From positions 1 to 45,243 of the IMG/VR virus record IMGVR_UViG_3300038439_000027: a stretch of 45,243 bases of DNA; one strand, 5' to 3'. The translations under genes and the position numbers were made by a program. Source of the stretch: a virus. The notes under the pieces are model-generated. The model searched no databases and had not been told where the DNA came from. It saw only the letters and a list, made by a program, of their open reading frames with translations. This document shows, one piece after another, positions 9,257 to 42,241 of the stretch (position 1 is its first letter; each line of letters starts with the position of its first letter).

Positions 9257-9589
9257 ATGGAAAAAAGAATGAGAACTAAGCCGCGATTTGATCTTGAAGA
9301 AGTTAAAAAAATATTTGAAGAATTAATTGGGAATAAGATAACAAACGGGATAGAAACAACTACAAAGATCGTTACCAGATGGAGACGAGGGGAGTTGAAA
9401 AGAATAGAGGTTAACAACGAGGATATTGGGGTTACGAACAGACATCAATACGAAACAAAACTTAACCGCGCGTTATTAATGAGCGGAAGGTTCAGACCAA
9501 ATTTTACCGGACGATTAGAGTTTGAAGTAACGATAACCGGCGGGAAATGCAGAAAAATCCATTACTCAATAAGCAATTTTATTTTTTAA
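9257..9589 (+). CDS. Hypothetical protein
   Basis: 110 basic residues with an ATAGGAGC box 8 bases before the ATG. Helix-rich N-terminus (FDLEEVKKIFEELIGNKITN) and beta-rich C-terminus (GRLEFEVTITGGKCRKIHYS). It sits directly before SSB and after a possible regulatory element, so it may open a new transcript. Family not recognised. Confidence 0.7.
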   Translation: MEKRMRTKPRFDLEEVKKIFEELIGNKITNGIETTTKIVTRWRRGELKRIEVNNEDIGVTNRHQYETKLNRALLMSGRFRPNFTGRLEFEVTITGGKCRKIHYSISNFIF

Positions 9590-10064: not shown

Positions 10065-10949
10065 ATGAAAAAGTTACTCATTTCAATCTTGGCATTTATT
10101 TTTTCACCGATTATAAATGTGTTAAACGAACTAAAAGAGAAATTAATAGAGAAACATCACGATTTGATACTTTCGTTAAGTGCAAATTTGACAGCGGAAG
10201 CGATGAGAACTCATGAATTATTGGAAAAGATTGAGCAACGGCAGTTAGAGACAAACTACTTTATCGGTGGAGTTGCGGCAACAAAGGATGAAGAAGCGCA
10301 GTTAGGCATGATGCAAGTGTTGGGGAACTTATCTCAGCAGCTTAATCACATCGGAAGAAAAGCAACAATGCCATTAATATTTACAGCAAAAGGGCTTGCT
10401 CTAAACGTTTTACAATGCAAGAAGATCATGTTTGAATGTACTTGGGATAACATTAACGTTATGCGTTTTCTGTTAATGGTTGACGGGATTGTAGCCGATA
10501 CGTTTGAATATAACTTTGAAAAGATTTCGCTTGATCCGGGTTTTGAGAAGTCGGAAGACAAACCGGTATTTGATTTTGCACGGGTATTTTTGAAAAAGCA
10601 TACAACACTTACAAACGGGAAGAAGAATATCAGCATTATTGATCACATTGCAACATCTGCAAGCAGACTGTTAATTAGCTATGTGCCGCAAAGAGACATT
10701 CTCTATCATGCAGAGATTAATATGATTTGCTTCCGATCGATCATTTCCGCAGTAACACCGTTTTATGAAAAAGAGAAAGCGGATAGCCAAGCACTGAATA
10801 AAGCGGAAGAGCCGAAAGAAATAGAACAAGCGAAAGAAGAGCAGAACAGTGAAGAAAAAATAGAACAGACTAACATTTTCCCCTTAAATGATGCGGGTAG
10901 AACAGATGTTGCAGAACAGTCCGAAAAATCAGAACAAAAAGAACAGTAG
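10065..10949 (+). CDS. Hypothetical protein with hydrophobic N-terminus and acidic tail
   Basis: 294 residues. The N-terminus (KKLLISILAFIFSPIINVLN) looks like a signal anchor or short membrane helix. Residues 24-110 are helical; about 115-215 have mixed alpha/beta character. The tail from about 235 is made of KAEEPKEIEQAKEEQNSEEK-type repeats and is probably disordered. An AAAGGAACG box lies 7 bases before the ATG. It separates SSB from the terminase genes. I do not recognise it. Confidence 0.7.
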   Translation: MKKLLISILAFIFSPIINVLNELKEKLIEKHHDLILSLSANLTAEAMRTHELLEKIEQRQLETNYFIGGVAATKDEEAQLGMMQVLGNLSQQLNHIGRKATMPLIFTAKGLALNVLQCKKIMFECTWDNINVMRFLLMVDGIVADTFEYNFEKISLDPGFEKSEDKPVFDFARVFLKKHTTLTNGKKNISIIDHIATSASRLLISYVPQRDILYHAEINMICFRSIISAVTPFYEKEKADSQALNKAEEPKEIEQAKEEQNSEEKIEQTNIFPLNDAGRTDVAEQSEKSEQKEQ

Positions 10950-14131: not shown

Positions 14132-14796
14132 TGCAAAGGAATCATAAAATATGTTCTGTTTGTGGCGGATTGATGCACAGACAAAGTAAAACTTGTAGAA
14201 CGTGTTACACAAACAATAAAATCAAACTTGGGAAATATATTTATAAAAAATGTGAGTATTGTGGGGAAAGTTTCCGTACACATCAATCTCAAATAAATGT
14301 CAATCAAGGGAAATATTGCAGTATAATTTGCGCAAGAAAAGGTAGCCCAACAAGAAAAAGAAATCGAGCAATTGTAAGATGTTTCCAATGCGGGTCTGAA
14401 TTAGAAAGGCATCTAAGCGAGACCAAAAGAAGAAAAGGGGATAATAATTTTTGTTCAACTAAATGTTGGTATGAATACAACCAAAGGCAAAATCACTCAA
14501 ATTGGCAAGGGGGACAAAGTGAAAGAATGACTCACGAATATCCACATTGGAGAAGAGATGTACTAAAAAGAGATAAAGGTTTTTGCCGTTTATGTCATTC
14601 AACTACAAAGATTGAAGTACATCATATCAAAAAATTTAGTCAATATCCCGATATAAGGTGGGAGATAAGCAATGGTATTTCCCTATGCGAAGATTGCCAT
14701 AAACTTGTTACTACCTCAGAAGAATATTATGAGGCATATTTACAATTTTTAGTCGGTTTACAAGTTGTTGTTTTCGATTTCGAGAAGGTAGCATAA
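14131..14796 (+). CDS. HNH endonuclease with zinc fingers
   Basis: The C-terminal third is a classic HNH nuclease: CRLCHSTTKIEVHHIKKFSQ (from about residue 152) then NGISLCEDCHKLV, with paired cysteines and the HH catalytic pair. Upstream are three more Cys-pair fingers: CSVCGG...CRTCYT, CEYCGESF...CSIICARKG, CFQCGSEL...CSTKCWYEY. These probably bind DNA. ATG 14131 is chosen because it couples to the previous stop and has GAGAGGA upstream; earlier in-frame starts are TTG 14107 and ATG 14119. It is likely a homing-type or phage-exclusion nuclease in the accessory island; a packaging nuclease is less likely. Confidence 0.88.
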   Translation: MQRNHKICSVCGGLMHRQSKTCRTCYTNNKIKLGKYIYKKCEYCGESFRTHQSQINVNQGKYCSIICARKGSPTRKRNRAIVRCFQCGSELERHLSETKRRKGDNNFCSTKCWYEYNQRQNHSNWQGGQSERMTHEYPHWRRDVLKRDKGFCRLCHSTTKIEVHHIKKFSQYPDIRWEISNGISLCEDCHKLVTTSEEYYEAYLQFLVGLQVVVFDFEKVA

Positions 14797-14797
14797 G

Positions 14798-15235
14798 ATG
14801 GGAAGGTTTAGCGGATGGACGGAGGCGGCAGTAAGGCAGGTGGAAAGTAGAAAGTTACAAGTGGAAAGTGAAGGGAGTACGATTAAGAATAAGATTATGA
14901 TTAAGAAAAAGAAAGGGGAGGATGTTATAGGGAAAATTGTTTCGGCTTTGAGCGCAATTGGGTTTAAGGCAACGAGGGAATATAAGTTTTTGAGGGATAG
15001 GCGCTTCCGGTTTGATGCAGCGTTACCAGCTCATCACATTGCAATTGAGTATGAGGGAGGCACGTATTCCGGAGGAAGACACGTTCGAGGGAAAGGATAT
15101 ACGAACGATTGTAAGAAATATACCATGGCCGCTATGGAAGGGTGGACGTTATTACGTTTTACAGTTGACATTACGAAGGAAAAGAATTATGAGTACAGAA
15201 TAGCTGATGATATTAGGAGGCTGATTGAAAAGTGA
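14798..15235 (+). CDS. PD-(D/E)XK-type endonuclease
   Basis: Resembles small phage endonucleases of the PD-(D/E)XK superfamily (VSR/DUF559-like). The core is FRFDAALPAHHIAIEYEGGT (D73, E84, E86), followed by SGGRHVRGKGYTNDCKKY and GWTLLRFT, a pattern found in phage resolvase-like nucleases. Residues 15-26 (VESRKLQVESEG) are encoded by four GAAAGTG-type heptamers. This suggests that the N-terminal extension was added by the repeat; the original start could be the ATG at 14897, which lacks a good ribosome site. Start 14798 has AAGG 10 bases upstream. Could process replication or recombination intermediates; inferred. Confidence 0.78.
   Translation: MGRFSGWTEAAVRQVESRKLQVESEGSTIKNKIMIKKKKGEDVIGKIVSALSAIGFKATREYKFLRDRRFRFDAALPAHHIAIEYEGGTYSGGRHVRGKGYTNDCKKYTMAAMEGWTLLRFTVDITKEKNYEYRIADDIRRLIEK
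14843..14870. repeat. Heptamer repeat, GAAAGTG family, inside a gene
   Basis: Four consecutive 7-mers (GAAAGTA, GAAAGTT, ACAAGTG, GAAAGTG) lie within the 5' part of the nuclease gene and are read as VESRKLQVES. The same repeat is found in two other genes and one intergenic gap. Confidence 0.8.
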
Positions 15236-16253: not shown

Positions 16254-16279
16254 TTACGAATTAGGAATTAGGAATTAGG
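16252..16279. repeat. Heptamer repeat acting as ribosome site
   Basis: Four units (AATTACG then three GAATTAG copies) run directly into the next ATG: AGGA-ATTAGG-ATG. The AGGA of the repeat sits six bases before the start codon, the ideal Shine-Dalgarno distance, and no other ribosome site is present. Confidence 0.75.
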
Positions 16280-18978: not shown

Positions 18979-18998
18979 AAATTTCAACCCTTCGGAGA
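18979..18998. repeat. 20-base direct repeat, copy A
   Basis: AAATTTCAACCCTTCGGAGA, identical to 39303-39322. Here it lies before the portal gene; the other copy lies before the protease-scaffold gene. In this copy a GTTGAAATTTCAAC palindrome (18975-18988) precedes it. Confidence 0.75.
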
Positions 18999-21124: not shown

Positions 21125-22176
21125 TGTTAATCTCACCGCTTGACGGGAAAATTCTGCATTTAAAAGAATTAGGAATGATTGAGGAAATTCTTTTTAACGA
21201 GGTTATTTCACCCGATGAATTTTACAAAGAACTCACCTCTTTTCTGAAGAAGAACTATAACCTTGACGCACGGGCAACTTTTACAACAGAAGAGCTACAG
21301 CAAGTCGATTTTTTTATCAATACTTTTTTTAACACAAGAATAAACGAGGCTAAGGTTTGGCTTTTACGCGCGTATGTGATGGGGAGATATTTAGCGCATA
21401 CCGATCTAACCGGACAAATTTTTAGACTTGGGAATTTAAGCAGCTTACCAAAGTATGTAACGGATGCGGCAAAGCAATACGGACTAAGCATTGAGGAGGC
21501 AATGGCATTACAGCAGGCGGTAGAGGAAAGCGCCGTACTGATGACAAACACAACGCAAAGCACCATCCAGACGGTACGTGAGGCGCTTGTTGAAAATGTT
21601 AAGAGAAATGGAGATGCAAAGGACTTAATTACAAAACTTCGTGAGCTGAGCAAGGATGATGTTGGAGAGTTAAACCGGAATTGGAAAAGAGTATGCATAA
21701 CTGAAGCGAATTCAATTTTTGCTAATGGTTATTTGTCAATGATTCCAGAGGGTGATTATGTTGTTGGAATGAGTATGCCGGATGCTTGCGGACATTGTAC
21801 GGAAGTGATCAACGGGCAGGTGTACAAAGTAAGGAAGAATGCGCCGCCGGATTACAGCAACATGAAAGGGGATGAATATGAGAAATGGGCGCATGTTTGG
21901 GAAACGGAAGTTTGGGCGGGGAAGAATAATTTTGGCAGAAGTACAAGCAATCGTAAACGGATTGATAAGCACAGAGGGAACAAAGAAGAAAATCTGCGCG
22001 AGAAAGAGCACCATGAATTTTCTATGCCAGCGATTCCAGATCATCCAAATTGCAGGTGCAGATGGGTGCATTTTAATCCTAAGTTCCAATGGGTTGATAG
22101 CAACAACCAAATAAGGCTGCGGGTTGAGGATGAGGACGCATGGGAAACCTGGTATGAGAATACAATTACGAATTAG
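21124..22176 (+). CDS. MuF-like minor head protein
   Basis: Phage Mu gpF / SPP1 gp7-type minor capsid protein that attaches to the portal and may be injected with DNA. The hallmark C-terminal core runs CITEANSIFANGYLSMI, MPDACGHCTEVINGQVYKV, then AIPDHPNCRCRWVHFNP, with the conserved HPNCRC and paired cysteines. The first 200 residues are helical. At 350 residues it is a plain member without an obvious C-terminal toxin domain. It follows the portal gene as usual. Ends in a GAATTAC repeat. Confidence 0.88.
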   Translation: MLISPLDGKILHLKELGMIEEILFNEVISPDEFYKELTSFLKKNYNLDARATFTTEELQQVDFFINTFFNTRINEAKVWLLRAYVMGRYLAHTDLTGQIFRLGNLSSLPKYVTDAAKQYGLSIEEAMALQQAVEESAVLMTNTTQSTIQTVREALVENVKRNGDAKDLITKLRELSKDDVGELNRNWKRVCITEANSIFANGYLSMIPEGDYVVGMSMPDACGHCTEVINGQVYKVRKNAPPDYSNMKGDEYEKWAHVWETEVWAGKNNFGRSTSNRKRIDKHRGNKEENLREKEHHEFSMPAIPDHPNCRCRWVHFNPKFQWVDSNNQIRLRVEDEDAWETWYENTITN

Positions 22177-22185
22177 GAATTAGGA
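22164..22185. repeat. Heptamer repeat, GAATTAG family
   Basis: AATTACG and two GAATTAG units cross the MuF stop codon (22174-22176) and end in TTAGGAG, which is the apparent ribosome site for ATG 22195. Confidence 0.75.
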
Positions 22186-22194
22186 GAAAACATT

Positions 22195-22431
22195 ATGAAA
22201 AATAAATTATTCGAAAAGATAAAGGTGTTTTTTAAGGGGTTGTGCCCGGAAATTGGTGAGAAGGTAAAACCGGTTGTAATTGCAGAGGTTGTACCGGAAC
22301 CGAAGTTTAATAACAATCCGCCAAAAGGTGGTAGTGGTGTAATAAATAACGGTTCGGTGAAGAAAAGGAAAGTAGTTAAGAAGACGAAAACTGAAATTAA
22401 CGTAAACCTAAAAAGAAAGGGAAAGAAATGA
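22195..22431 (+). CDS. Small lysine-rich protein
   Basis: 78 residues: an N-terminal amphipathic helix (KNKLFEKIKVFFKGLCPEIG), a Pro/Gly/Asn linker and a strongly basic tail (KKRKVVKKTKTEINVNLKRK). The basic tail could bind nucleic acid or another head protein. AGGAG of the repeat lies 9 bases upstream. Four-base overlap (ATGA) with the next gene. No family recognised. Confidence 0.6.
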   Translation: MKNKLFEKIKVFFKGLCPEIGEKVKPVVIAEVVPEPKFNNNPPKGGSGVINNGSVKKRKVVKKTKTEINVNLKRKGKK

Positions 22432-28367: not shown

Positions 28368-28397
28368 GTTAACATATAGGAATTTATATGAATTAAC
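28368..28397 (+). promoter_or_regulatory. 30-base GTTAA...TTAAC dyad element, copy 4
   Basis: Begins GTTAACATATAGGAA and ends GAATTAAC; inverted ends GTTAA/TTAAC and inner ATAT on both sides. It lies 38 bases upstream of the next start codon, so a promoter or operator role fits well here. Confidence 0.5.
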
Positions 28398-28435
28398 ATC
28401 AAACAACAAACAACTCTAAAAGAAGGAGAAAGATC

Positions 28436-28900
28436 ATGGTACAATTCCCATTACTCACCGATGCCCAGGTTGCGGCAAAGGATTTTATGAATCAAGGAGA
28501 TGCTTTAAAAGCGTTAGACCTTTTGCAGAATCTTCCTTACGTAAACGTTTCAGCCGCATTGGCAGCGGGCGCAACGGGCGTAACTACAAACGAGCACATC
28601 TTTGTAGCGCCGTGCAAATTGGAAATTTTGGAAGCGAAGTTCATCACTACCGTAGTTAACACCGGTACAAGCAACGAACCGGAAGTAAAATTGTTAGCGG
28701 ACACAGCCATTGTTGGTGTTAGCGGCGCAATTGTTTTAGCAGGCGCAGCAGTTGGCGATGTTGCAACTTTAACGCTTGATGCGGCTGAGGTTGTAGTAGA
28801 AGCCGGGACAAAACTTATTCTTAGAATAGTTAATCCTACTGCAACAATTACTACTCCGTTAACCGGAAAGCTTCAGTTCATCTGGAAACCAACTGTTTAG
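28436..28900 (+). CDS. Beta-rich head decoration-like protein
   Basis: 154 residues, rich in Ala, Val and Thr with alternating strands (GATGVTTNEHIFVAPCKLEI, GAIVLAGAAVGDVATLTLDA, KLILRIVNPTATITTPLTGK), the profile of a beta-sandwich decoration, head-fibre or cement protein. The first 40 residues are helical. It has its own AGAAGGAG box, a 30-base upstream element and a terminator just after, so it forms a single-gene unit, as expected for an abundantly made structural protein. No strong sequence match recognised. Confidence 0.6.
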   Translation: MVQFPLLTDAQVAAKDFMNQGDALKALDLLQNLPYVNVSAALAAGATGVTTNEHIFVAPCKLEILEAKFITTVVNTGTSNEPEVKLLADTAIVGVSGAIVLAGAAVGDVATLTLDAAEVVVEAGTKLILRIVNPTATITTPLTGKLQFIWKPTV

Positions 28901-28917
28901 TTCATTAGTACGGTTGT

Positions 28918-28954
28918 AAGTGGTTAGTAGTAATGTGTGACTAACCACTTTTTT
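28918..28954 (+). terminator. Rho-independent terminator
   Basis: AAGTGGTTAGT (28918-28928) and its exact complement ACTAACCACTT (28940-28950) with an 11-base loop, followed by TTTT. It follows the decoration-like gene by 17 bases. Confidence 0.85.
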
Positions 28955-30493: not shown

Positions 30494-33400
30494 ATGAAAT
30501 TATTTGGAATGACAATAGCAAAGAGTAAAGTAATTATTGAAAATCTTGATGATAAGTTGAAAGCGGAAAAGACTTTCAAACTTCAGGATAGAATTTATTT
30601 TAAGGGGCTTGATATTGCTATAGAAAATAAAAAGGGAAGCATACGGCGCGGGGTGAATGATGATGGTACAAAATGGGAAACGTTCATGCACATCCCTTAT
30701 GGTTACGTTAGGCGAACGGAAAGTATTTCGGACGGGGAGAAGATCGATTGTTACATAGGCGATAACCGGGAGAGTGAGAAGGTTTTTATTGTTGATCAGA
30801 ATAATCCTTTTACCGGCATGTTTGACGAACAAAAGTGCATGTTGGGTTTTAACACGGCCGAAGAAGCGAAGACTGCATATTTGAAGCAGTATGACAGTCC
30901 AAAGTTTTTTGGCAGCATGAAAGAAATAAGTTTTGATGAGTTTAAGAAAAAAGCGTTAGCAACATTGGAAAAACCGAAATTATTAAAAGCATTTGGAATA
31001 ATGTTAAAAGCGTTCGGTACGCAGTTAGGAATGTTTGAGAATGAAGTTATCGAGGGACAGACGAAGCAGAAAGACGGGCACAGCTATGTAGTTAAGCGAA
31101 GTAACAAAAATCCATTAGTAAAGAGGTTGTTTAGGGCTGATAAGGAGGAGAGTAAGCCGAAGGAGTTATCGTTGTTTGATAAGAAGGTAACGGTAGGCAG
31201 TCGGCAGTCAGCAGTTAGCAGTAGGCAATCGGCAGTAGGCAATCGGGCAGGAAGTAAACCACCAAAAGCGGAACCGATAAAGCCAAAAGAATTAACAGCA
31301 GAAGAACTTTCCGAATTACCTGAATCCATTTTAATGATGGGGGAAGTGTTTGGAGATAGTGCTGCAGATATTGAAGCAGTTAGACAATATCACGCAAAAA
31401 CAAAAAATTATAAACCAAATATCTTTTATCATGCAACAGGTGGAACGGGTGAAGCTGGTGTTGGACGAGGCTTGTACCTTGGGAAAGACAAAGAAGCGCT
31501 TGACAAATTTTATAACATCGACCAGATTGCGGATATAGAAGAATATCAAGGCTCTCCTAATTTTTTAGATTTAACTAATTATGATGCTTTTAATGCCTTC
31601 GAGAAAGAGGCTAAGAACAAATATAAAAGCAATAATCCTTTACGGGATTTAACTATAAAACAAGGCTATGATGGAATTAGATATTATGACCCACAAGCAA
31701 CAGGGGAAGAATTTGTTTTATTCAATACGGAAAAAGTAAAAAAGGTTGCGGAAACAAAAGACGATCTTTTTAACCAGCCGAAGGAAGAGAGAAAAGAGCC
31801 GAAGGCAGAAATAAAAGTTGTTAAGGGGAAGAAAAACAGAAAAGAGATTAACGCTAAGGTTGAGGAGTTATTAAAGACAAAGAAAAACGATGAGATGAGC
31901 GCCGAGGATGTAGAACTCTTAGCACAGTACACCGGACGCGGCGGATTGTTGGGGGATACGCTTGAGGATATTTCGCTTAATGAATTTTACACAAGGAAAG
32001 ATGAAGCGGAATTTATTTGGGATATGATAGGGAAGTTAGGTTTTAAGGGAGGTAATGTTTTAGAGCCTTCGATGGGAACGGGAATTTTTGTTGAGACAGC
32101 GCCGGAGAAAGCGCTTGTAACCGGAATTGAGATCGAGGAAACGAGCGGGCGCATCGGACAGATTTTACACGGCAACGAGCACGATATAAGAATACAAAGT
32201 TTCGAGCAGTTTATAAAAGACTATGATAATATGGGAGCGGATTTAGAAGGGGGAGAGTATGACGCGGTAGTTGGGAATTGTCCGTTTGGCAAAAGGGGAT
32301 TAAGCGCAATGGATGATAGGGAGAAGAGTGATATAAAATTCCATGAGCAATATTTTATTGATAGAGGTTTGGATATGTTGAAGCCGGGGGGAATAATGGC
32401 AATGATCGTTCCAACAAGTATAATGGATAATCAACTTAATCAATGGCGGGGTGAGGTAAACAAAAAAGGGGAATTTCTTGGAGCAATAAGAGTACCAACC
32501 GGAGCATTCAAACACACAGACGCGCAAGTAACAACGGATATAGTTTTCTTTAAGAAAAGACCGCCGGAAGTGATTGACCATTTGAACAAACTTTCTAAGG
32601 AAGGGCTTGGAAAAGCTTATGATGATATGGTAATGGATGCTGATTTTGTTGCGGGAAATTTCTTTAAGAATAATTCTGAGTATGCGTTAGGAACGGAAAC
32701 AAGCGGAATGTTCGGGATGAAGATATGGAAAGGCGATGTTACAAAGGCTGATTTGGAAAAGGTCGGGGAGTTGTTAAACCATGAGGCAAGGGATTATAGC
32801 AGTTTAGGTATTGATGTTAGCAAATATGGTGAGTTAGAAAAAGAACTTGAACCGGGAGATGTAAAGATATTAAACGGAAGAACTTACATCCTTAATAAAA
32901 ACCATAGATGGGAAAGACTGAAAGATCAGGAAGTAGTATTACAAAACTTACCGGAAGACATTAAAAAACTTGGTATTAAGAGTTGGGATGAATGGAGAAT
33001 TAAGAGCGAGGACATCGGCTATTTGTACGGATTGAATAAGGACCAACTTAAACTTTTTGGACAAACAAGAATTGTAAATGAATTGGAAGGATACAATGGT
33101 AAGAATGATTTTCAGACGGAATATTTAACCAAGGGAGTTATTCTTGGTTTAGCAGTAAAGGATTTTAGGAAGGAACTGCAAGACGGAAGATTATCCGCTG
33201 AAGAGGCGCAAATGGAAGCGGGGAAACTGAAAATATTACTGAAGGATTTTATTGAAAAGTACGGACATCCAATTGATAATTTGAAGTTGAATAAATTTTT
33301 TAGGAACAGCGGAAATGCGCCACTCTTGGATTTAGCAGGTAGCTATGATAAGAACGGTAACACAATCAAGATGTTTGATGATCCGCTGTCTTTTTATAAA

Positions 33401-36400
33401 GTTTATCAAACGAAGAGCGAAATAGGAACGGTGGACCGGAATGATATTGTTTCGGTGATTAGTTTTCTTTTTGCAAATAATTTTCCAACGGATTATCAAA
33501 CGATACGCGGCGAGTATGAAGGGGATGGAGATATTGAAAGAGAGCTTGCATACAGTGATGAAATTTATTTTGATGAAGAGGGAAATTATAAACCGAAAGA
33601 GGAAGTCCTTTACGGTTATATTTACGAAAAGATAGACGCATGGGAAAAGCAACGGACAGAACTGAAGAAGGAATCCAAGAACGATAAGTTAAGCGATAAA
33701 GAAAAAGAACTGAACGCACAAAAAATGCGGAAGCTTGAAGATCAGATAATTGAGGCGAAGACTAGGGCAAATATCAGGGAGATAAAGCAACTACCGATAA
33801 TGTTAAGCGATGCAGGGAGTATTTACGATATAGGCATCTTAAACAAATATTTAGAAGAAAAAATAGGGGCGCATTTCTTAGGCGAATTACGCAAAGATGA
33901 AAAGAGCGGATTTATTTTACCGGTGGACGAAAGTTCGGCAAAATTATATTTAGGTTATGCAGATATAACGAAAGAGGGAAAATCAACGAGTGTAAAGAAA
34001 GAATTGCGGGATCTCTTTAATAAAGATGAGCATCCTTTATTGTTTATGATTTTAAATAAGATGAACGGATTAGGTTTACCGGCATTACGAACAGAGGAAG
34101 GGATAGCTAAGAAAGAACAAGTCTTACAGCTTGAGACAGATTTTAAGCAGTATTTATCCGATAGTGAAGAAGCTGATAAAATTGCAGATACTTATAATAG
34201 GCTGTTTAATTCCTACATACAAAAAACGTATGATGAAAAACCGATAGAGGGAATAAAACATTTTGCTTATGATAGAGTAGTTGGAAAAGACGCAAGCGGA
34301 AAAGATATAACCGGACGAGATAAGGCGGGCGGACATACATGGGCAACGGTAAGACGGATGTATGAATCAGGCAAGGGTATGATAGCGCATGGTGTGGGTT
34401 TAGGAAAAACTTTGGAAGCATTAACTTTAACTTTGTTGAGTAAAGAGACGGGAAGGGCAAATAAGCCGTGTATAGTTTCTCCGAAATCGGTGTTGTTAAA
34501 TTGGGTTGCGGAAATTGAGAAGTGGACGCAAGGGGTAAATTATTTGTTAGTTGGTTACAAAAAAGATTCTACCGGCGCTTGGATTGAAGAAAGCCGTGAA
34601 GAAAAAGAATTGAAGTTGCAACGTGCAGCAAATGAAGATTTTGACATGATTTTAATGAGCCGTGATTTGTTCGGTACAATTGACTTTTCGCCCGAAACGA
34701 AAAAGAATATGCTTAATGAATTGATGGACAAGTATTACCCGGAAGGAAGCCGGTTATCAAGTTTCGCCGACAAAGATAGCAAGCAAGCAAAGAATGTGAA
34801 AAAGAAAAGAGATACTTTGTTAAAGAATCTTTCCGAAATGATGGACATACCGGATCCAATGGGGGGAGTGTATCTTGATAATTTGGGGGTTGATATGTTG
34901 GTAAGGGATGAAGCTCACGACACGAAGAACTTATTAGTGCCAATGGAAAGTGAAATTAGCGGAGTAAACAGCAGCACTTCACAAAGGGCGATGCACAATT
35001 TATTTGCAAGTAAGATCATACGCGGACAGAATAATGATATGGGGTATTACGGATTAACTGCAACACCGATAAGTAATTCTCCGTTAGAAGTTTTTAATAT
35101 GATGGTGCCGTTTGCGGAGAAAGAACTTGAAAAATTAAAAGTTCAAAACATGGATGATTTTGTTGCAAGATTTGCAGATATAGATAATATTCCAACAACA
35201 AATGCAGACGGCAGGGTTATAGTAAAGAATAAATTTTCGGGCTGGAAATCGGCTGAGGCATTAAGAAATACTTTCTTTAGGTTTGTTGATTATAAGACTA
35301 AGGATGATGTTGAAAGCGTAAAAGCAAATATAAAATTCCCGAAAGAAAAAGCAGCGAATGTTTTAAGTGATCTGAACGAAGGGCAAAAAGAAATAGTGAA
35401 GCATTGCAAATTAAGGTTATGGATGTTAAGCAGCCGCGTATTTGATAAGGACAGCAAGACATGGGATTTTGACGCGAAGAAGTTACAGGAAAAAGTAGGT
35501 GAGGGATTAATTAGTCAGGAAGAAGCAACGGAAGTTTTGAGTTATTTTAATAACGAATATTTACCCAAGTATAAAGAATTGAACGCTTGGCTTGGACCTG
35601 ACGATACACCGAATGACGATCACTTTTTTAAGGTGCAGCAAGATTTGATAAAAGCAACGAGTGATTTGCCCTGGTATCAGGAAAAGAGCAGTGAATTTTC
35701 TAAAAAGGTTGACAATGATTTGGTTAAACAGCATAGTGATTTAAAGAAGTTCGCGCAGTTGAATGAGAATGCATTATCAATACATAAGAGTGGAGGCAAA
35801 CAAATAGTTTTCGCCATTAACACGGCTTTGCATGATAAGATTAAAAACGATCTTGTAAAAGCAGGCATACCGGAGAACGAAATAATAATTGTAAACGGAA
35901 AGACGGTTAGCAGCTCGAGTAAAAGATTACAGATAAGCAAAGATTACAATAACGGAAAGTATAAGGTTGTAATTGGTAATTATGCAACTATGGGAGAAGG
36001 GTTGAACTTTAACTACATGACGAGCGATATTCACCACTTACAACCAGCTTGGAACCATTTGCAGATAGAGCAGGGCAACGGAAGAGGAATAAGGCAGGGA
36101 AATCCGTTAGACAGTGTAAATACGCATTACTACTTAACGAAAGGGAGTATTGACGGATTTATGAATACAAAAATCATGGATAAGGCGGGAATGGTAGATA
36201 AGTTCTTAAAGGGTGAAACGAGCCGATGGGATGACGAAGTGCAGCTTGAGGCTGATGAAATGATGATTGAGTTAGCCGATAATCCGGAACAGGCAAAAGC
36301 ATTATTAGCATTCAGAAATAAAAAGTTACAGGATGCACTTGCAGAACAGCAACGGCAATCTAACTATAAACAGCTTGATAGATTGTATGAGGTAAAAAGG

Positions 36401-37498
36401 AAAAAGGCGGGAATGGAGGAAAAAACTTCTAAACAATACCAGATGATGGAACAGGAAGAAAGAAGTTTAACCGAAAAACTTATCGGGGCAAATTTTGAGC
36501 ATAAGGGGAAACTTGACTATGACAGAACTCCGGTAATTTTACCGGGGATAAACAAAGTTATTCCGGTAGGTGGTATTTTGGAAGGGAAAGAAGGAGAGTT
36601 TTACGCGGTTGAAGATTACGCGCCATCTACCCAGAGAGTGAAGATAAGAACGTATAAAGCCGGGGCGCAAGGCGATATGGTAGGAACCCGCGCGTTAAGC
36701 GCAAAAGAACTTGATAAAGAATTCAACGCATTGTACAAAGAAACCGATTTAGATTTAGGCGGAATGTTTAAGAAAATTATTGATGATAATGAAGAGCTTG
36801 GAATTAACTTTATAAGCAAAATGCCAAAGGAAATTTTGCAAGCAAATAAAGTTAAATTGCTTGATAAACTTAACAATACCGATGAAGTATTGTACCAAAC
36901 TATGGACGGTGATTTTAAGGTAGCGGTTTATGAAAATGCAAAGTATGAAATTACAAGCGAAGGAGGGAAGATAATTTTCCCACAGGAGAAGCCGGAATTT
37001 CCAAAGATACTTAATGAGTTGATCAAAACGAATAAACCAAAGCAAAATTGGGGAGAGGGTTATTATCAATTTAGGAAGTATAAGAATTTTGCAACTTCTA
37101 TTTATGGTGAGAATTACGAAAACGCAATTAAGAAAGAGATCAAACGGTTAAATGGTGAAGCAACTGAAACAAGTATCGCCATCCACACAACCGGCGCGAA
37201 GTACAAACAAGAATTAAAGCGGTTGTTTGAAAAAGGGTATATGAGTGATTATACTTATAAAAGAATTATGCAAGGTAAGGCTTGGAACGAGCAAACTGAT
37301 TTTAGCCATGCGTTAAGGGCAGAGTTTTTTGATAATTACCACATAAAGGAAGACGGCGGAGAGTATAGGTTCAATCCGAGTTTAATTACTGCCGAGGCTA
37401 TTGATAGAGCCAGAGCAATTGATGAAATAAAAAGTGAAGACAACAAAGATTTATTAGAGGATATACTTACAAATAAAATGAGAGGAGTTGCGGCATAA
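30494..37498 (+). CDS. Polyvalent protein 2: InPase, ART, N6-methyltransferase and SNF2 helicase (DarB-like)
   Basis: A 2334-residue protein from ATG 30494, preferred over the upstream in-frame TTG 30440. Domains in order: inorganic-pyrophosphatase-like polyvalent domain (about 39-155: IRRGVNDDGTKWETF, DGEKIDCYIG, DEQKCMLGF); ADP-ribosyltransferase-like domain (about 305-415: FYHATGG, GLYLGKD, EFVLFN); class I methyltransferase (about 490-650) with LEPSMGTGIF and N595-C-P-F598 in place of NPPF; HRWERL linker (about 810); SNF2-type helicase with Walker A HGVGLGKT (K1305), DEAH at 1472-1475, GLTATPIS and QGNGRGIRQG (R1864, R1867). The methyltransferase-helicase pairing recalls phage P1 DarB, a capsid protein that shields injected DNA from type I restriction. 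Capsid packaging and injection are inferred from family and location. Some activities may be lost. Confidence 0.85.
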   Translation: MKLFGMTIAKSKVIIENLDDKLKAEKTFKLQDRIYFKGLDIAIENKKGSIRRGVNDDGTKWETFMHIPYGYVRRTESISDGEKIDCYIGDNRESEKVFIVDQNNPFTGMFDEQKCMLGFNTAEEAKTAYLKQYDSPKFFGSMKEISFDEFKKKALATLEKPKLLKAFGIMLKAFGTQLGMFENEVIEGQTKQKDGHSYVVKRSNKNPLVKRLFRADKEESKPKELSLFDKKVTVGSRQSAVSSRQSAVGNRAGSKPPKAEPIKPKELTAEELSELPESILMMGEVFGDSAADIEAVRQYHAKTKNYKPNIFYHATGGTGEAGVGRGLYLGKDKEALDKFYNIDQIADIEEYQGSPNFLDLTNYDAFNAFEKEAKNKYKSNNPLRDLTIKQGYDGIRYYDPQATGEEFVLFNTEKVKKVAETKDDLFNQPKEERKEPKAEIKVVKGKKNRKEINAKVEELLKTKKNDEMSAEDVELLAQYTGRGGLLGDTLEDISLNEFYTRKDEAEFIWDMIGKLGFKGGNVLEPSMGTGIFVETAPEKALVTGIEIEETSGRIGQILHGNEHDIRIQSFEQFIKDYDNMGADLEGGEYDAVVGNCPFGKRGLSAMDDREKSDIKFHEQYFIDRGLDMLKPGGIMAMIVPTSIMDNQLNQWRGEVNKKGEFLGAIRVPTGAFKHTDAQVTTDIVFFKKRPPEVIDHLNKLSKEGLGKAYDDMVMDADFVAGNFFKNNSEYALGTETSGMFGMKIWKGDVTKADLEKVGELLNHEARDYSSLGIDVSKYGELEKELEPGDVKILNGRTYILNKNHRWERLKDQEVVLQNLPEDIKKLGIKSWDEWRIKSEDIGYLYGLNKDQLKLFGQTRIVNELEGYNGKNDFQTEYLTKGVILGLAVKDFRKELQDGRLSAEEAQMEAGKLKILLKDFIEKYGHPIDNLKLNKFFRNSGNAPLLDLAGSYDKNGNTIKMFDDPLSFYKVYQTKSEIGTVDRNDIVSVISFLFANNFPTDYQTIRGEYEGDGDIERELAYSDEIYFDEEGNYKPKEEVLYGYIYEKIDAWEKQRTELKKESKNDKLSDKEKELNAQKMRKLEDQIIEAKTRANIREIKQLPIMLSDAGSIYDIGILNKYLEEKIGAHFLGELRKDEKSGFILPVDESSAKLYLGYADITKEGKSTSVKKELRDLFNKDEHPLLFMILNKMNGLGLPALRTEEGIAKKEQVLQLETDFKQYLSDSEEADKIADTYNRLFNSYIQKTYDEKPIEGIKHFAYDRVVGKDASGKDITGRDKAGGHTWATVRRMYESGKGMIAHGVGLGKTLEALTLTLLSKETGRANKPCIVSPKSVLLNWVAEIEKWTQGVNYLLVGYKKDSTGAWIEESREEKELKLQRAANEDFDMILMSRDLFGTIDFSPETKKNMLNELMDKYYPEGSRLSSFADKDSKQAKNVKKKRDTLLKNLSEMMDIPDPMGGVYLDNLGVDMLVRDEAHDTKNLLVPMESEISGVNSSTSQRAMHNLFASKIIRGQNNDMGYYGLTATPISNSPLEVFNMMVPFAEKELEKLKVQNMDDFVARFADIDNIPTTNADGRVIVKNKFSGWKSAEALRNTFFRFVDYKTKDDVESVKANIKFPKEKAANVLSDLNEGQKEIVKHCKLRLWMLSSRVFDKDSKTWDFDAKKLQEKVGEGLISQEEATEVLSYFNNEYLPKYKELNAWLGPDDTPNDDHFFKVQQDLIKATSDLPWYQEKSSEFSKKVDNDLVKQHSDLKKFAQLNENALSIHKSGGKQIVFAINTALHDKIKNDLVKAGIPENEIIIVNGKTVSSSSKRLQISKDYNNGKYKVVIGNYATMGEGLNFNYMTSDIHHLQPAWNHLQIEQGNGRGIRQGNPLDSVNTHYYLTKGSIDGFMNTKIMDKAGMVDKFLKGETSRWDDEVQLEADEMMIELADNPEQAKALLAFRNKKLQDALAEQQRQSNYKQLDRLYEVKRKKAGMEEKTSKQYQMMEQEERSLTEKLIGANFEHKGKLDYDRTPVILPGINKVIPVGGILEGKEGEFYAVEDYAPSTQRVKIRTYKAGAQGDMVGTRALSAKELDKEFNALYKETDLDLGGMFKKIIDDNEELGINFISKMPKEILQANKVKLLDKLNNTDEVLYQTMDGDFKVAVYENAKYEITSEGGKIIFPQEKPEFPKILNELIKTNKPKQNWGEGYYQFRKYKNFATSIYGENYENAIKKEIKRLNGEATETSIAIHTTGAKYKQELKRLFEKGYMSDYTYKRIMQGKAWNEQTDFSHALRAEFFDNYHIKEDGGEYRFNPSLITAEAIDRARAIDEIKSEDNKDLLEDILTNKMRGVAA
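31193..31248. repeat. Heptamer repeat, GTNGGCA family, inside polyvalent gene
   Basis: Eight consecutive 7-mers: GTAGGCA, GTCGGCA, GTCAGCA, GTTAGCA, GTAGGCA, ATCGGCA, GTAGGCA, ATCGGGC. They are read as a 7-residue period (VGSRQSA, VSSRQSA, VGNRAGS) in a linker between the pyrophosphatase-like and ART-like domains. Three heptamers equal seven codons, so frame is maintained. Confidence 0.9.
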
Positions 37499-37875
37499 TG
37501 GAACTAAAAGAAAAAGTTAAGCAATTACTTAACACATGGATACAAACGGAAGACGGAACGGGAAACTTTAAGTTGACCGGACCATACTGGGAAGCTCTTT
37601 ACCCAATATTAAAAAAACACGAACCGGAATTATTGCAACAGTATGAAAATAAACTGCAAGAAAAGTTTGAAAACTTTAACGAAGAAATTAGAGAGAAAGT
37701 TTCTTCCGGTGATGAAGAACAGGACTATGTGAATGCAATTAATTACATGAACGCGCGGGAACGGCAGTACGCAAATAACGGCGATGTTCATTATGTTGAT
37801 AATGACGGAGATGATTACGCATATATTCCAAATGAGAGCATTGATCAGAACGAACATTTTGGAAGAGAAGTTTAA
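37498..37875 (+). CDS. Hypothetical acidic protein
   Basis: 125 residues, coupled to the giant polyvalent gene by TAATG, with GAGAGGAG upstream. Helical and acidic (KHEPELLQQYENKLQEKFEN, EEIREKVSSGDEEQDYVNAI), ending in an Asp/Tyr-rich stretch (GDVHYVDNDGDDYAYIP). The strong coupling suggests a partner or chaperone of the polyvalent protein; no family recognised. Confidence 0.65.
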   Translation: MELKEKVKQLLNTWIQTEDGTGNFKLTGPYWEALYPILKKHEPELLQQYENKLQEKFENFNEEIREKVSSGDEEQDYVNAINYMNARERQYANNGDVHYVDNDGDDYAYIPNESIDQNEHFGREV

Positions 37876-37876
37876 C

Positions 37877-37890
37877 GGCGTAATTACGCC
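37877..37890. other. Perfect 14-base palindrome
   Basis: GGCGTAATTACGCC begins two bases after the TAA stop codon at 37873-37875. It could be a repressor site or a 5-base-pair hairpin with an AATT loop. No T tract follows, so it is not a typical terminator. Confidence 0.5.
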
Positions 37891-37906
37891 ATAATCAAAG
37901 GAGTTT
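37891..37906. repeat. 16-base direct repeat of a ribosome-site leader, copy A
   Basis: ATAATCAAAGGAGTTT is identical to 38680-38695. The second copy is the working ribosome site of the cassette gene at 38699. This copy has no start codon at a suitable distance and looks orphaned. Confidence 0.7.
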
Positions 37907-37944
37907 GTTCACGGGATACACAAATCTAAAACGTAGGAATAGTA

Positions 37945-38427
37945 ATGCAGATTTGCGATGTGGACGAAAATACATTAGAACAGTTAATAAAAGATTTTAC
38001 GGATGAGTTTGGGGAAGAAGTGTTAAAAGCTGTTTATCGGTTCCACCGGAAATTGGCGAATAAAATAGACGTGAAGAATTTTCCGGCGGCGGAGATTTAT
38101 CATAGGCTATTGATAAAGGACTTACGCGAGGGCAAATACGCTCAAATGAGTGTGCGTGAAATTGCAATAATTGAAAAAGTAAGCGAAGGTACGATCTATA
38201 ATATTATCGGGAAAGCGTGTAGGGTAAAGAAACCGATTTATCAATACTCAATTAAAGGTAAGTTGATAAAAAAATGGAACAGCGGGACGGAAATAGAGAA
38301 AGAATTAGGCTATAGCGCAAGTCAGATACGGGCAAACTGTAGATTAGGGAATGGTAGGGCGACTTATGGTTTTGTTTGGAGATACCAGGAATTAACGGGG
38401 GAAGAACTTTTGTCAATTAGGAATTAG
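37945..38427 (+). CDS. HTH-NUMOD1 regulator-like protein
   Basis: 160 residues. The N-terminal helices (about 8-65) are followed by an HTH (MSVREIAIIEKVSEGTIYNI, about 68-93) and a NUMOD1 module (PIYQYSIKGKLIKKWNSGTE, IEKELGYSASQIRANCRLG, YGFVWRYQEL; about 97-150). NUMOD1 normally guides GIY-YIG or HNH homing endonucleases, but no nuclease domain is present. It may be a transcriptional regulator derived from a homing enzyme. AGGA lies 7 bases before the ATG. The last residues (LSIRN) are encoded by a GAATTAG repeat. A terminator follows at 38578. Confidence 0.78.
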   Translation: MQICDVDENTLEQLIKDFTDEFGEEVLKAVYRFHRKLANKIDVKNFPAAEIYHRLLIKDLREGKYAQMSVREIAIIEKVSEGTIYNIIGKACRVKKPIYQYSIKGKLIKKWNSGTEIEKELGYSASQIRANCRLGNGRATYGFVWRYQELTGEELLSIRN

Positions 38428-38442
38428 GAATTAGGAATTAGG
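38414..38442. repeat. Heptamer repeat, GAATTAG family
   Basis: Four successive GAATTAG-type units cover the 3' end and stop codon of the HTH-NUMOD1 gene. Confidence 0.8.
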
Positions 38443-38577
38443 ATGTTGAGGGAATAGCCGAAATTATCAGAAATTTTATTTGTAAAGAGAAATGACAAAT
38501 TTAGTTTAAAGTGTAAAGTTTTGGGGTTACATTTTTTTCTTACATAATATTTTACATAATCTACGTTTATTTTTGTG

Positions 38578-38609
38578 AACCTCCGGAGATGAAAGCTTCG
38601 GAGGTTTTT
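38578..38609 (+). terminator. Rho-independent terminator upstream of cassette
   Basis: AACCTCCG (38578-38585) pairs with CGGAGGTT (38599-38606); further G-U and A-T pairs extend the stem, and TTT follows. It closes the HTH-NUMOD1 transcript. The arm sequence is shared with the terminator at 39251. Confidence 0.75.
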
Positions 38610-38617
38610 AGTAGTAA

Positions 38618-38647
38618 GTTAATACATAACTTGTTCTATAAATTAAT
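38618..38647 (+). promoter_or_regulatory. 30-base GTTAA...TTAAT dyad element, copy 5
   Basis: Begins GTTAATACAT and ends AAATTAAT, immediately after the terminator and 51 bases before the next start codon. Position is right for a promoter or operator of the cassette gene. Confidence 0.45.
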
Positions 38648-38679
38648 ATTTAATAAGTTTGGGGTGAAGATTAGAACAA

Positions 38680-38695
38680 ATAATCAAAGGAGTTT
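38680..38695 (+). repeat. 16-base direct repeat of a ribosome-site leader, copy B
   Basis: ATAATCAAAGGAGTTT, identical to 37891-37906. Here AAAGGAG lies seven bases before ATG 38699 and works as the ribosome binding site. Confidence 0.7.
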
Positions 38696-38698
38696 AAA

Positions 38699-39226
38699 AT
38701 GAATTATATATTTGAAGAAAGAAATGATGCCTTAGTAATTGAATACAGTACTAAAGACAATTTTCGAGAGTTCACACAAATAAAATACACGCCGGATTCA
38801 GAATATCCACTATCTACAGAAGTAGTTGAAAACATAAAAGACTTAGACAAGCCGGTGGTATTCCACAACTCTATTTCGCATGAAGATTATAAATTCATAT
38901 GCGAACAATTTAAGATGCCTTTAGATCGTGGATATGGAAATTGCAAGATTTGGGCTGCTATCTGTTTATATAACCATCAAGAAACTGCGGCAAATAATAC
39001 GATTAGAGTTTTTTTGGATGCAACAAAAAATCAAATGTTGGCATCGCATCATCCCTTGTTACGAGAAAAGCTTAAGAGAGACAAGCAAAAAGAAATAGAG
39101 ATTTCTTTTTGTGTAAATTATGGTATAAGAAGAACAACAAAGATGGTGATTGATGAGAAGGACGAACTTTACACAAAAACCGATGAAGAAATCTATGAAA
39201 TGATAAAAAAAGTTTTTACATCTTAA
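38699..39226 (+). CDS. Terminator-flanked single-gene cassette (moron candidate)
   Basis: 175 residues of unknown family with mixed alpha/beta character: MNYIFEERNDALVIEYSTKD, DKPVVFHNSISHEDYKFICE, FLDATKNQMLASHHPLLREK, FCVNYGIRRTTKMVIDEKDE. It has its own upstream 30-base element, strong ribosome site and a terminator on each side with matching arms. This layout is that of a moron, an independently expressed accessory gene, often for superinfection exclusion, anti-defence or host fitness. No homology to known anti-defence proteins is recognised, so function is open. Confidence 0.72.
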   Translation: MNYIFEERNDALVIEYSTKDNFREFTQIKYTPDSEYPLSTEVVENIKDLDKPVVFHNSISHEDYKFICEQFKMPLDRGYGNCKIWAAICLYNHQETAANNTIRVFLDATKNQMLASHHPLLREKLKRDKQKEIEISFCVNYGIRRTTKMVIDEKDELYTKTDEEIYEMIKKVFTS

Positions 39227-39250
39227 AATTTAGTAGCAAAAGACAATGAC

Positions 39251-39285
39251 AAACCTCCGAGGAATTGAAAACCTCGGAGGTTTTC
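39251..39285. terminator. Bidirectional-type terminator after cassette
   Basis: AAACCTCCGAGG (39251-39262) and its exact complement CCTCGGAGGTTT (39272-39283), nine-base loop, followed by TCTATTTT. A perfect 12-base-pair stem with T-rich flank. Strong terminator after the cassette gene. Confidence 0.9.
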
Positions 39286-39302
39286 TATTTTAAACAATCT
39301 TC

Positions 39303-39322
39303 AAATTTCAACCCTTCGGAGA
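39303..39322. repeat. 20-base direct repeat, copy B
   Basis: AAATTTCAACCCTTCGGAGA, identical to 18979-18998. It lies 46 bases before the TTG start of the protease-scaffold gene. Confidence 0.75.
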
Positions 39323-39367
39323 GAAACGCTTTCCTTAAATATGCAATAAAAAAAAGAGTAAACAATT

Positions 39368-40807: not shown

Positions 40808-42241
40808 ATGGACGATTTAATGTTTGGCGAATTAGCCGGAAACGGATCAAGTTTCGGCGGCGCATCAACAGTAAAAGAACTCCAGGACTTAGCCAAAGCT
40901 CTTGAGGTTGGTTATGCGATGGGGACAACGGATCAAACCGGATTTGGAGCCACAAGACTTGAAAGCCTTGACCCGGTTGTAAAATGGCTTACCTTAAACG
41001 AATCATCCCCGGCATTCTTTAGAGCAATACGAAAAGGAAAAGCTTCCAGCACTGTTGAGGAATTTGTAACCATGAACGAAGTAGGAGACGCTAATTTTTA
41101 TTCTGAAGGCGGATTACCGGATGAATACGATGAAGATATCCGAAGAGAATTTGAGCAGGTGAAATACATCGGAACCGTAGGTAAAGTGCCTTTACAGGCG
41201 TTAATGGTAAAGAGTAATACCAACAACGAAGCGCTTGTTACGAGAGCGAAAGCACTTGCAATAATGAAAACCGCTGACAGTAAACTTATTTATGGTGATG
41301 CTGCACGTAATCCTTACGAATGGAACGGTTATTACAAACAATTTAAGACCAAAGCAAAAAGTGTAACCCAAAACACTATTGATTTGCGCGGTAAACGAGT
41401 AAGACCGGAAACCTTAAACGAATCGGTACAAATTATTGCCGATAACTGGGGTAATCCAAACAATGTAAAATGCTGGATGAGCGCAAAAGATTTTCAGTAT
41501 TATACCGATGAATTGTTAGCCGGTAGAAGATTTGTAGTAGGAAGTTCCGAAGCCCGTGATCTTATTGCAAGCGCAAAAAGATTTGAACTTGGAAACGGAA
41601 AAGGAAATATTGAAACAGATATTTTATTGAAATACAAAGGTCAAAATTACATAGGCGCAGAGTATCCTAAAACCAACAGCTTAATGACGGTATTTGCCGC
41701 AACAAACAGCAAAGCGCCGGCAACATTAAGCGCAGGCACTGCAACAATTTCGGTTGACGCAGATACAGCTACCTTGCTTGACGCGGCAACTTATGATTAC
41801 GCATTTGTTCCGGTTAATAGATATGGTTCAGGCGCAGCATTTGAAGTAAAAACAAATGTTGTTGCAGCTTCCAAACGTTGTACTTTTACCTTAACCGATA
41901 ACGGTTCACCTTCGGGACAAGAAGCAACAAGTTTTGATATTTACCGTAAACTTTCATCCGCTACCGCAATTACAAGTTATAGATATTTAACTTCGTTTAC
42001 AGCAGCCGAAGCAAAGATTGACAACGGAGAATGGATACCGGGAGCAACCAATATTTTCTTATGGGATTGGGACTTTGAACAAGTGCTCGATTTCAGACAA
42101 TTACTGCCAATGACAAAAATGGAATTAGCAAGAATTGATGATTCCAAACGTTGGATGCAGAAATTATGGGCAGTTCCGATTCTTGCAGCACCAAATAAAA
42201 TGGTGATGATAAAGAACGCAGGTTCTACTGCTTGGTCTTAA
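40808..42241 (+). CDS. Major capsid protein (HK97 fold, SPO1/A511-like)
   Basis: 477 residues forming the head shell. The N-terminal arm LEVGYAM...QTGFGATRLESLD then SPAFFRAIRKGKASSTVEEF, the spine-like helix region NNEALVTRAKALAIMKTADS, the NPYEWNGYYKQ section and the end FRQLLPMTKMELARIDDSKR with WAVPILAAPNKMVMIKN resemble the capsid proteins of SPO1/A511-type phages as I remember them. Residues about 300-398 form an Ig-like inserted domain (APATLSAGTATISVD, FDIYRKLSSATAITSYR). TTGGAG lies 8-10 bases before the ATG. The position after a protease-scaffold gene supports the call. The N-terminal arm is the probable protease-processed or scaffold-contacting part. Confidence 0.9.
   Translation: MDDLMFGELAGNGSSFGGASTVKELQDLAKALEVGYAMGTTDQTGFGATRLESLDPVVKWLTLNESSPAFFRAIRKGKASSTVEEFVTMNEVGDANFYSEGGLPDEYDEDIRREFEQVKYIGTVGKVPLQALMVKSNTNNEALVTRAKALAIMKTADSKLIYGDAARNPYEWNGYYKQFKTKAKSVTQNTIDLRGKRVRPETLNESVQIIADNWGNPNNVKCWMSAKDFQYYTDELLAGRRFVVGSSEARDLIASAKRFELGNGKGNIETDILLKYKGQNYIGAEYPKTNSLMTVFAATNSKAPATLSAGTATISVDADTATLLDAATYDYAFVPVNRYGSGAAFEVKTNVVAASKRCTFTLTDNGSPSGQEATSFDIYRKLSSATAITSYRYLTSFTAAEAKIDNGEWIPGATNIFLWDWDFEQVLDFRQLLPMTKMELARIDDSKRWMQKLWAVPILAAPNKMVMIKNAGSTAWS

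Follow-up and report, generated by a model that had tools for sequence, protein, structure and literature searches.

Is the small orphan gene just upstream of the head-maturation protease gene in this viral record an accessory cassette with transcription signals of its own, and, if so, how might it have arrived and what might it do? The window analyzed here is a viral record of 45,243 bases that carries phage head genes, those for the protease (39368) and the major capsid protein (MCP; 40808), and its capsid protein matches those of SPO1-like and Bacteroides phages at 25–29% identity. An initial annotation had proposed that the gene is a likely moron, equipped with a 30-base element and a ribosome site and enclosed by terminators. 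The open reading frame is real; it has an ATG start and a well-placed AAAGGAG upstream, and its features and surroundings are collected in Table 1.

Table 1. Features at the cassette site, in window coordinates
Feature	Position	Strand	Remarks
NUMOD1/HTH gene	37945–38427		Conserved in all relatives; no nuclease domain; adjoins variable spot
Hairpin 1, AACCTCCGGAGATGAAAGCTTCGGAGGTTTTT + T-run	38578–38610	+	−18 kcal/mol; probably terminates the NUMOD1 gene unit upstream
P element, GTTAATACAT-N16-TAAT...TAAGTTTG	38616–38661	+	Repeated promoter-like sequence of the phage group
Ribosome binding site, AAAGGAG	38686–38692	+	
Accessory gene, 175 aa	38699–39226	+	ATG start; predicted soluble orphan protein; absent here in relatives
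Hairpin 2, AAACCTCCGAGGAATTGAAAACCTCGGAGGTTTTC + T-run	39251–39285	+	About −20 kcal/mol; putative terminator
L element, TTCAACCCTTCGGAGA-N-TTAAATA	39279–39350	+	Repeated intergenic element before late genes

Four related records (G001–G004) were retrieved with the capsid protein as query. G001 and G004 are the same over the site and, with G002 and G003, give three distinct relatives; a fifth record (G005, L105) is the same as G003 over the 13.7 kb compared. The MCPs of the three relatives are 99, 95 and 89% identical to that of the window. Around the site, all of them are collinear, and each also carries the protease gene that lies downstream. Alignment to these genomes skips from window position 38612 to 39298. 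The gene and hairpin 2 are missing in every relative, and the position of the cassette is occupied by 54–84 bases with a different hairpin. The gene is also missing elsewhere in the relatives' records, save for one distant homolog. Presence or absence in related phages had been offered as the check on the moron proposal; the site proved empty in three distinct genomes (five records), and the gene is not universal. Its absence, with that of hairpin 2, from all relatives marks the gene as accessory, and such variation among close relatives, at a site where they are otherwise collinear, is as expected of a moron. These comparisons support the view that the gene is a lineage-specific accessory transcription unit with a promoter-like element and a hairpin, and it is the absence in relatives that suggests the gene to be dispensable for phage growth. 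The relatives could have lost the gene instead of the window having gained it, although it is missing in three lineages. The cassette lies in a variable spot (37498–39298), around which other relatives carry other small orphan genes (92 residues in L003; 124 and 95 residues in L004), none of which has a known family. We also considered that the insert might be the cargo of a homing endonuclease, given the NUMOD1/HTH gene at 37945; this candidate was rejected because that gene is conserved in all relatives and lies outside the insert.

On either side of the gene stands a strong hairpin, and the two share their outer arms (AACCTCCG/CGGAGGTT) exactly; this bears out, at the level of sequence, the terminators with common arms that had been noted on both sides. 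Within the window, these two 8-mers are confined to hairpins 1 and 2. Perfect GC-rich hairpins of 8 bp are rare: three distinct ones occur in the window, two of which flank the gene, versus zero to two per shuffle when the whole window was shuffled 10 times. Viewed as a direct repeat of 24 nt, the pair is just 83% identical. A simple terminator scan picked hairpin 2 alone of the pair, with a regional hit total at chance level. Hairpin 1 is common to all three related genomes and hairpin 2 is found in the window alone. From sequence, we infer that both act as terminators. Hairpin 2 (39251–39285), with its T-run and folding energy of about −20 kcal/mol, would give the gene a terminator of its own, as in a moron. 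The same arms have at least 120 matches in viral contigs and are not specific to this phage; their use as a marker of the phage group was dropped for that reason. Separately, short AATTAGGAATTAGGAA repeats stand at gene ends at window positions 16261, 28971 and 38417, and they are possibly an intergenic repeat of host type.

The upstream element described in the annotation exists and recurs in the phage family, although it extends over ~45 bases rather than 30 and, unlike the hairpins, is found on the 5′ side of the gene only. Window positions 38616–38690 are 78–85% similar to other places in the related genomes, and a profile search for the element (hereafter P) found five strong copies plus weaker ones. 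Its general form is GTTAAYRYA-N17-TAAY with fixed spacing. This motif occurs six times on the gene strand of the window and never on the other strand, against 0.08 expected from dinucleotide shuffles; there are eight copies in G002 and ten in G003. Four of the six window copies fall outside open reading frames, which leave just 5% of the sequence, and are situated 44–81 bases 5′ of an ATG, before the genes at 9257, 28436 and 38699 and the MCP gene at 40808. Further copies precede the leader of an SbcC-like gene and, in a relative, a second accessory cassette. Promoters read by Bacteroidota sigma-AB have TTTG around −33 and TAnnTTTG at −7 (PMC7366714). The copy at 38616–38661 resembles this consensus in containing CTTG-N20-TAAGTTTG, but most P copies have the phage-specific GTTAAYRYA box and several are only partial at −7. 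Taken by itself, the Bacteroidota consensus is close to its chance frequency in the window (two found, 1.3 expected), so the case for a promoter depends on the repeated element. We infer that P is a phage-specific promoter. Since P also precedes the MCP gene, the cassette gene is probably expressed during lytic growth, which is likelier than expression from a prophage.

Two other loci with P elements deserve description in their own right. A core single-gene unit of like layout is present at 28368–28952 of the window, where P is followed by a gene (28436–28900) and a terminator-type hairpin (28917–28952); the 154-residue product is kept in all relatives and is perhaps structural. Elsewhere, P is followed by a leader of ~100 bases in which two interleaved stems are possible (an H-type pseudoknot), with a T-run at the end. 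The leader lies at about 1393–1500 of L148 (G002 14758–14863), in L147 (G003 31733–31832) and, on the minus strand, in L149 (G004, near 10400–10520), a site that corresponds to the sequence just left of window position 1. It precedes the SbcC-like gene in G002 and G004 and an inserted HNH-like gene in G003. The stems of G003 are not those of G002/G004 in sequence but remain complementary, both sides having changed as judged by eye; one arm in G003 is also similar to the region where the downstream gene begins. The leader has no Rfam match and is possibly a new phage regulatory RNA.

A second repeated element (L) spans the right-hand junction. Copies were located at window positions 18983 and 39300 and at 35716, 54782, 67519, 73713 and 79690 of G002; they precede portal, protease, tape-measure-like and other late genes, often directly 3′ of a hairpin. 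The 16-base core occurs two to five times per record, where a few occurrences per million such records are expected, and the extended pattern, sought in viral contigs, turned up in this phage group alone. L is likely a late promoter or leader. At the junction itself, positions 39279–39300, made up of the end of hairpin 2 and the bases that follow it, are 100% identical to G003 86427–86448 and 95% identical to G001 45352–45373, both of which are non-orthologous L copies at another late gene, whereas at the orthologous site the relatives differ from this sequence. The junction thus fits non-orthologous L copies better than its own site, a trace that recombination between L copies would leave.

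The second accessory cassette, in G002 (72639–73730), has a comparable arrangement. After P at 72639 come three orphan open reading frames (151, 65 and 77 aa), a hairpin of the AACCTCCG type (AAACCTCCGAAG...TTTCGGAGGTTTTT, at 73655) and an L element (TTCAACCCTTCGGAGA). In G003 and G001, the genes that flank this site overlap at ATGA. In the window and G002 cassettes alike, 81 bases separate the beginning of the GTTAA box from the start codon. The matching layouts indicate two insertions at different loci that share the 5′ element, the type of 3′ hairpin and the downstream L element. Recombination between such repeated elements is the probable route by which the cassette arrived.

The protein was correctly described as belonging to an unknown family, with no assignment accepted in Pfam, NCBIfam or PADLOC and no sequence match in the PDB; the same searches gave no acceptable match to a known defence or anti-defence family. 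It has no membrane segment (the highest 19-residue mean hydropathy is 0.52) and a pI of 5.6, and is predicted to be soluble and cytosolic. The GC content of the gene (0.320) is below the mean of the other genes (0.383, SD 0.035), a shift of less than two SD. Structure prediction with AlphaFold gave a pLDDT of 48.6 from one sequence and 43.4 from two, too poor for a fold search. A sole homolog was found, at G003 21751–22365 (37% identity over residues 9–94, E = 5e-9), and was seen again in one further contig of the G003 kind; no others were detected in bacterial genomes, plasmids, phage records or viral contigs. Its neighbors in G003, one a small gene and the other ParB-like, lie side by side in G004 and G002, which indicates that the homolog, too, was inserted as a single gene. 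The two proteins align poorly in their C-terminal parts, and this suggests a shared N-terminal domain with differing tails. A DnaQ/RNase H-like exonuclease, considered on the basis of a 'VVFHN...D' pattern, was rejected: neither families nor profiles support it, and the acidic motifs are misaligned.

Other readings of the gene were weighed against this evidence. As a classical prophage moron, it would act in superinfection exclusion or lysogenic conversion and be expressed from the integrated phage. Its accessory status, promoter-like element and terminator-type hairpin would suit that role, as would the tyrosine recombinase encoded by G002 and G003, which may be temperate. However, P also precedes the major capsid gene and a further core gene, pointing to lytic expression, and a search for MCP matches in bacterial genomes, for host and prophage relatives alike, found none. 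Superinfection exclusion proteins usually, though not universally, have a membrane or lipoprotein signature; this protein has neither. We therefore regard the prophage reading as improbable. An accessory structural protein, such as a head decoration protein or a scaffold partner, seems equally improbable. The gene does lie directly 5′ of the protease and capsid genes, in the head cluster, and its promoter class is in common with that of the MCP, yet the three related genomes, with the same head genes, all lack it, and its G003 homolog is in a non-structural region, next to the ParB-like gene.

Kinship with the terminase large subunit is very improbable indeed. What prompts it is a weak match to Twortvirinae terminases (PHROG E = 0.0013; tblastn E = 4), which we rejected as chance-level: the tblastn value is the best in the whole collection, an unrelated NCBIfam family scores equally (E = 0.0016), the match covers the Cys-rich part of the terminase without its cysteines being kept, and the window's own terminase is not matched.

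The reading that we favor, with good though not full confidence, is a moron-like accessory single-gene cassette with the following architecture and expression. The cassette would have entered a tailed phage in the gap between the conserved NUMOD1/HTH gene and the gene for the head-maturation protease, most likely when repeated regulatory elements (a hairpin plus P or L) shared across these phage genomes underwent homologous recombination with one another. Hairpin 1 would stop upstream transcription and P restart it; the gene would be translated from its good ribosome site, and hairpin 2 would end the transcript ahead of the protease unit. Our guess as to its role, a tentative one, is host interaction in lytic infection, through takeover or counter-defence. 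The exclusion or anti-defence function suggested in the initial annotation drew no support from the searches of Pfam, NCBIfam, PADLOC and the PDB or from the look for a membrane segment. The annotation's 'new system' is not indicated because there is one orphan gene.

How far the cassette resembles known systems can be stated with some precision. It is like a moron in being a single gene of somewhat lower GC between conserved genes, with a promoter-like element and a terminator, present in one of several relatives. It differs from a classical moron, which a prophage expresses, in that the promoter-like element comes from the phage's own capsid-gene set and lytic expression is expected. The term moron, as originally applied, is therefore apt for an accessory single-gene cassette absent in relatives, but less so for prophage expression, given a P class shared with the capsid gene. 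The borders invite comparison with the promoter-early stem-loops (PeSLs) of T4-type phages (Arbiol 2010; Comeau 2014), for which PMC4503421 reports the shuffling of genes among close relatives, and for which exchange by recombination of the kind favored here has been proposed. Both are intergenic, genome-repeated stem-loops beside a phage promoter-like element that border swapped genes. Here, copies of P and of hairpin plus L occur at several loci (the window and G001–G004), and element copies border exchanged genes at window 38614–39300 and G002 72639–73730. The phage group and the sequences are different, however; the phage is not of T4 type, its capsid protein matching those of SPO1-like and Bacteroides phages, and the promoter class may not be early. 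Because the phage is not T4-type and the elements also precede late and capsid genes, the borders may be said to work like PeSLs rather than to be PeSLs, much as the cassette works like a moron.

A bolder proposal, which we put forward as an unlikely one, is that a phage group with probable Bacteroidota hosts shuffles single-gene cassettes into its late region by PeSL-like terminator and promoter repeats, and that the cassette founds a new counter-defence family with an N-terminal domain (EYST...QIKYT...EYP) shared by otherwise different proteins. The locus offers an example of single-gene cassette swapping among phages, and a clean one, resolved by close relatives, in which phages differ by one gene as a complete putative transcription unit. 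Its small orphan family, found in this phage group alone, is a candidate for phage–host conflict, and the repeated regulatory elements at the cassette borders suggest that PeSL-like shuffling may extend beyond the T4-type phages.
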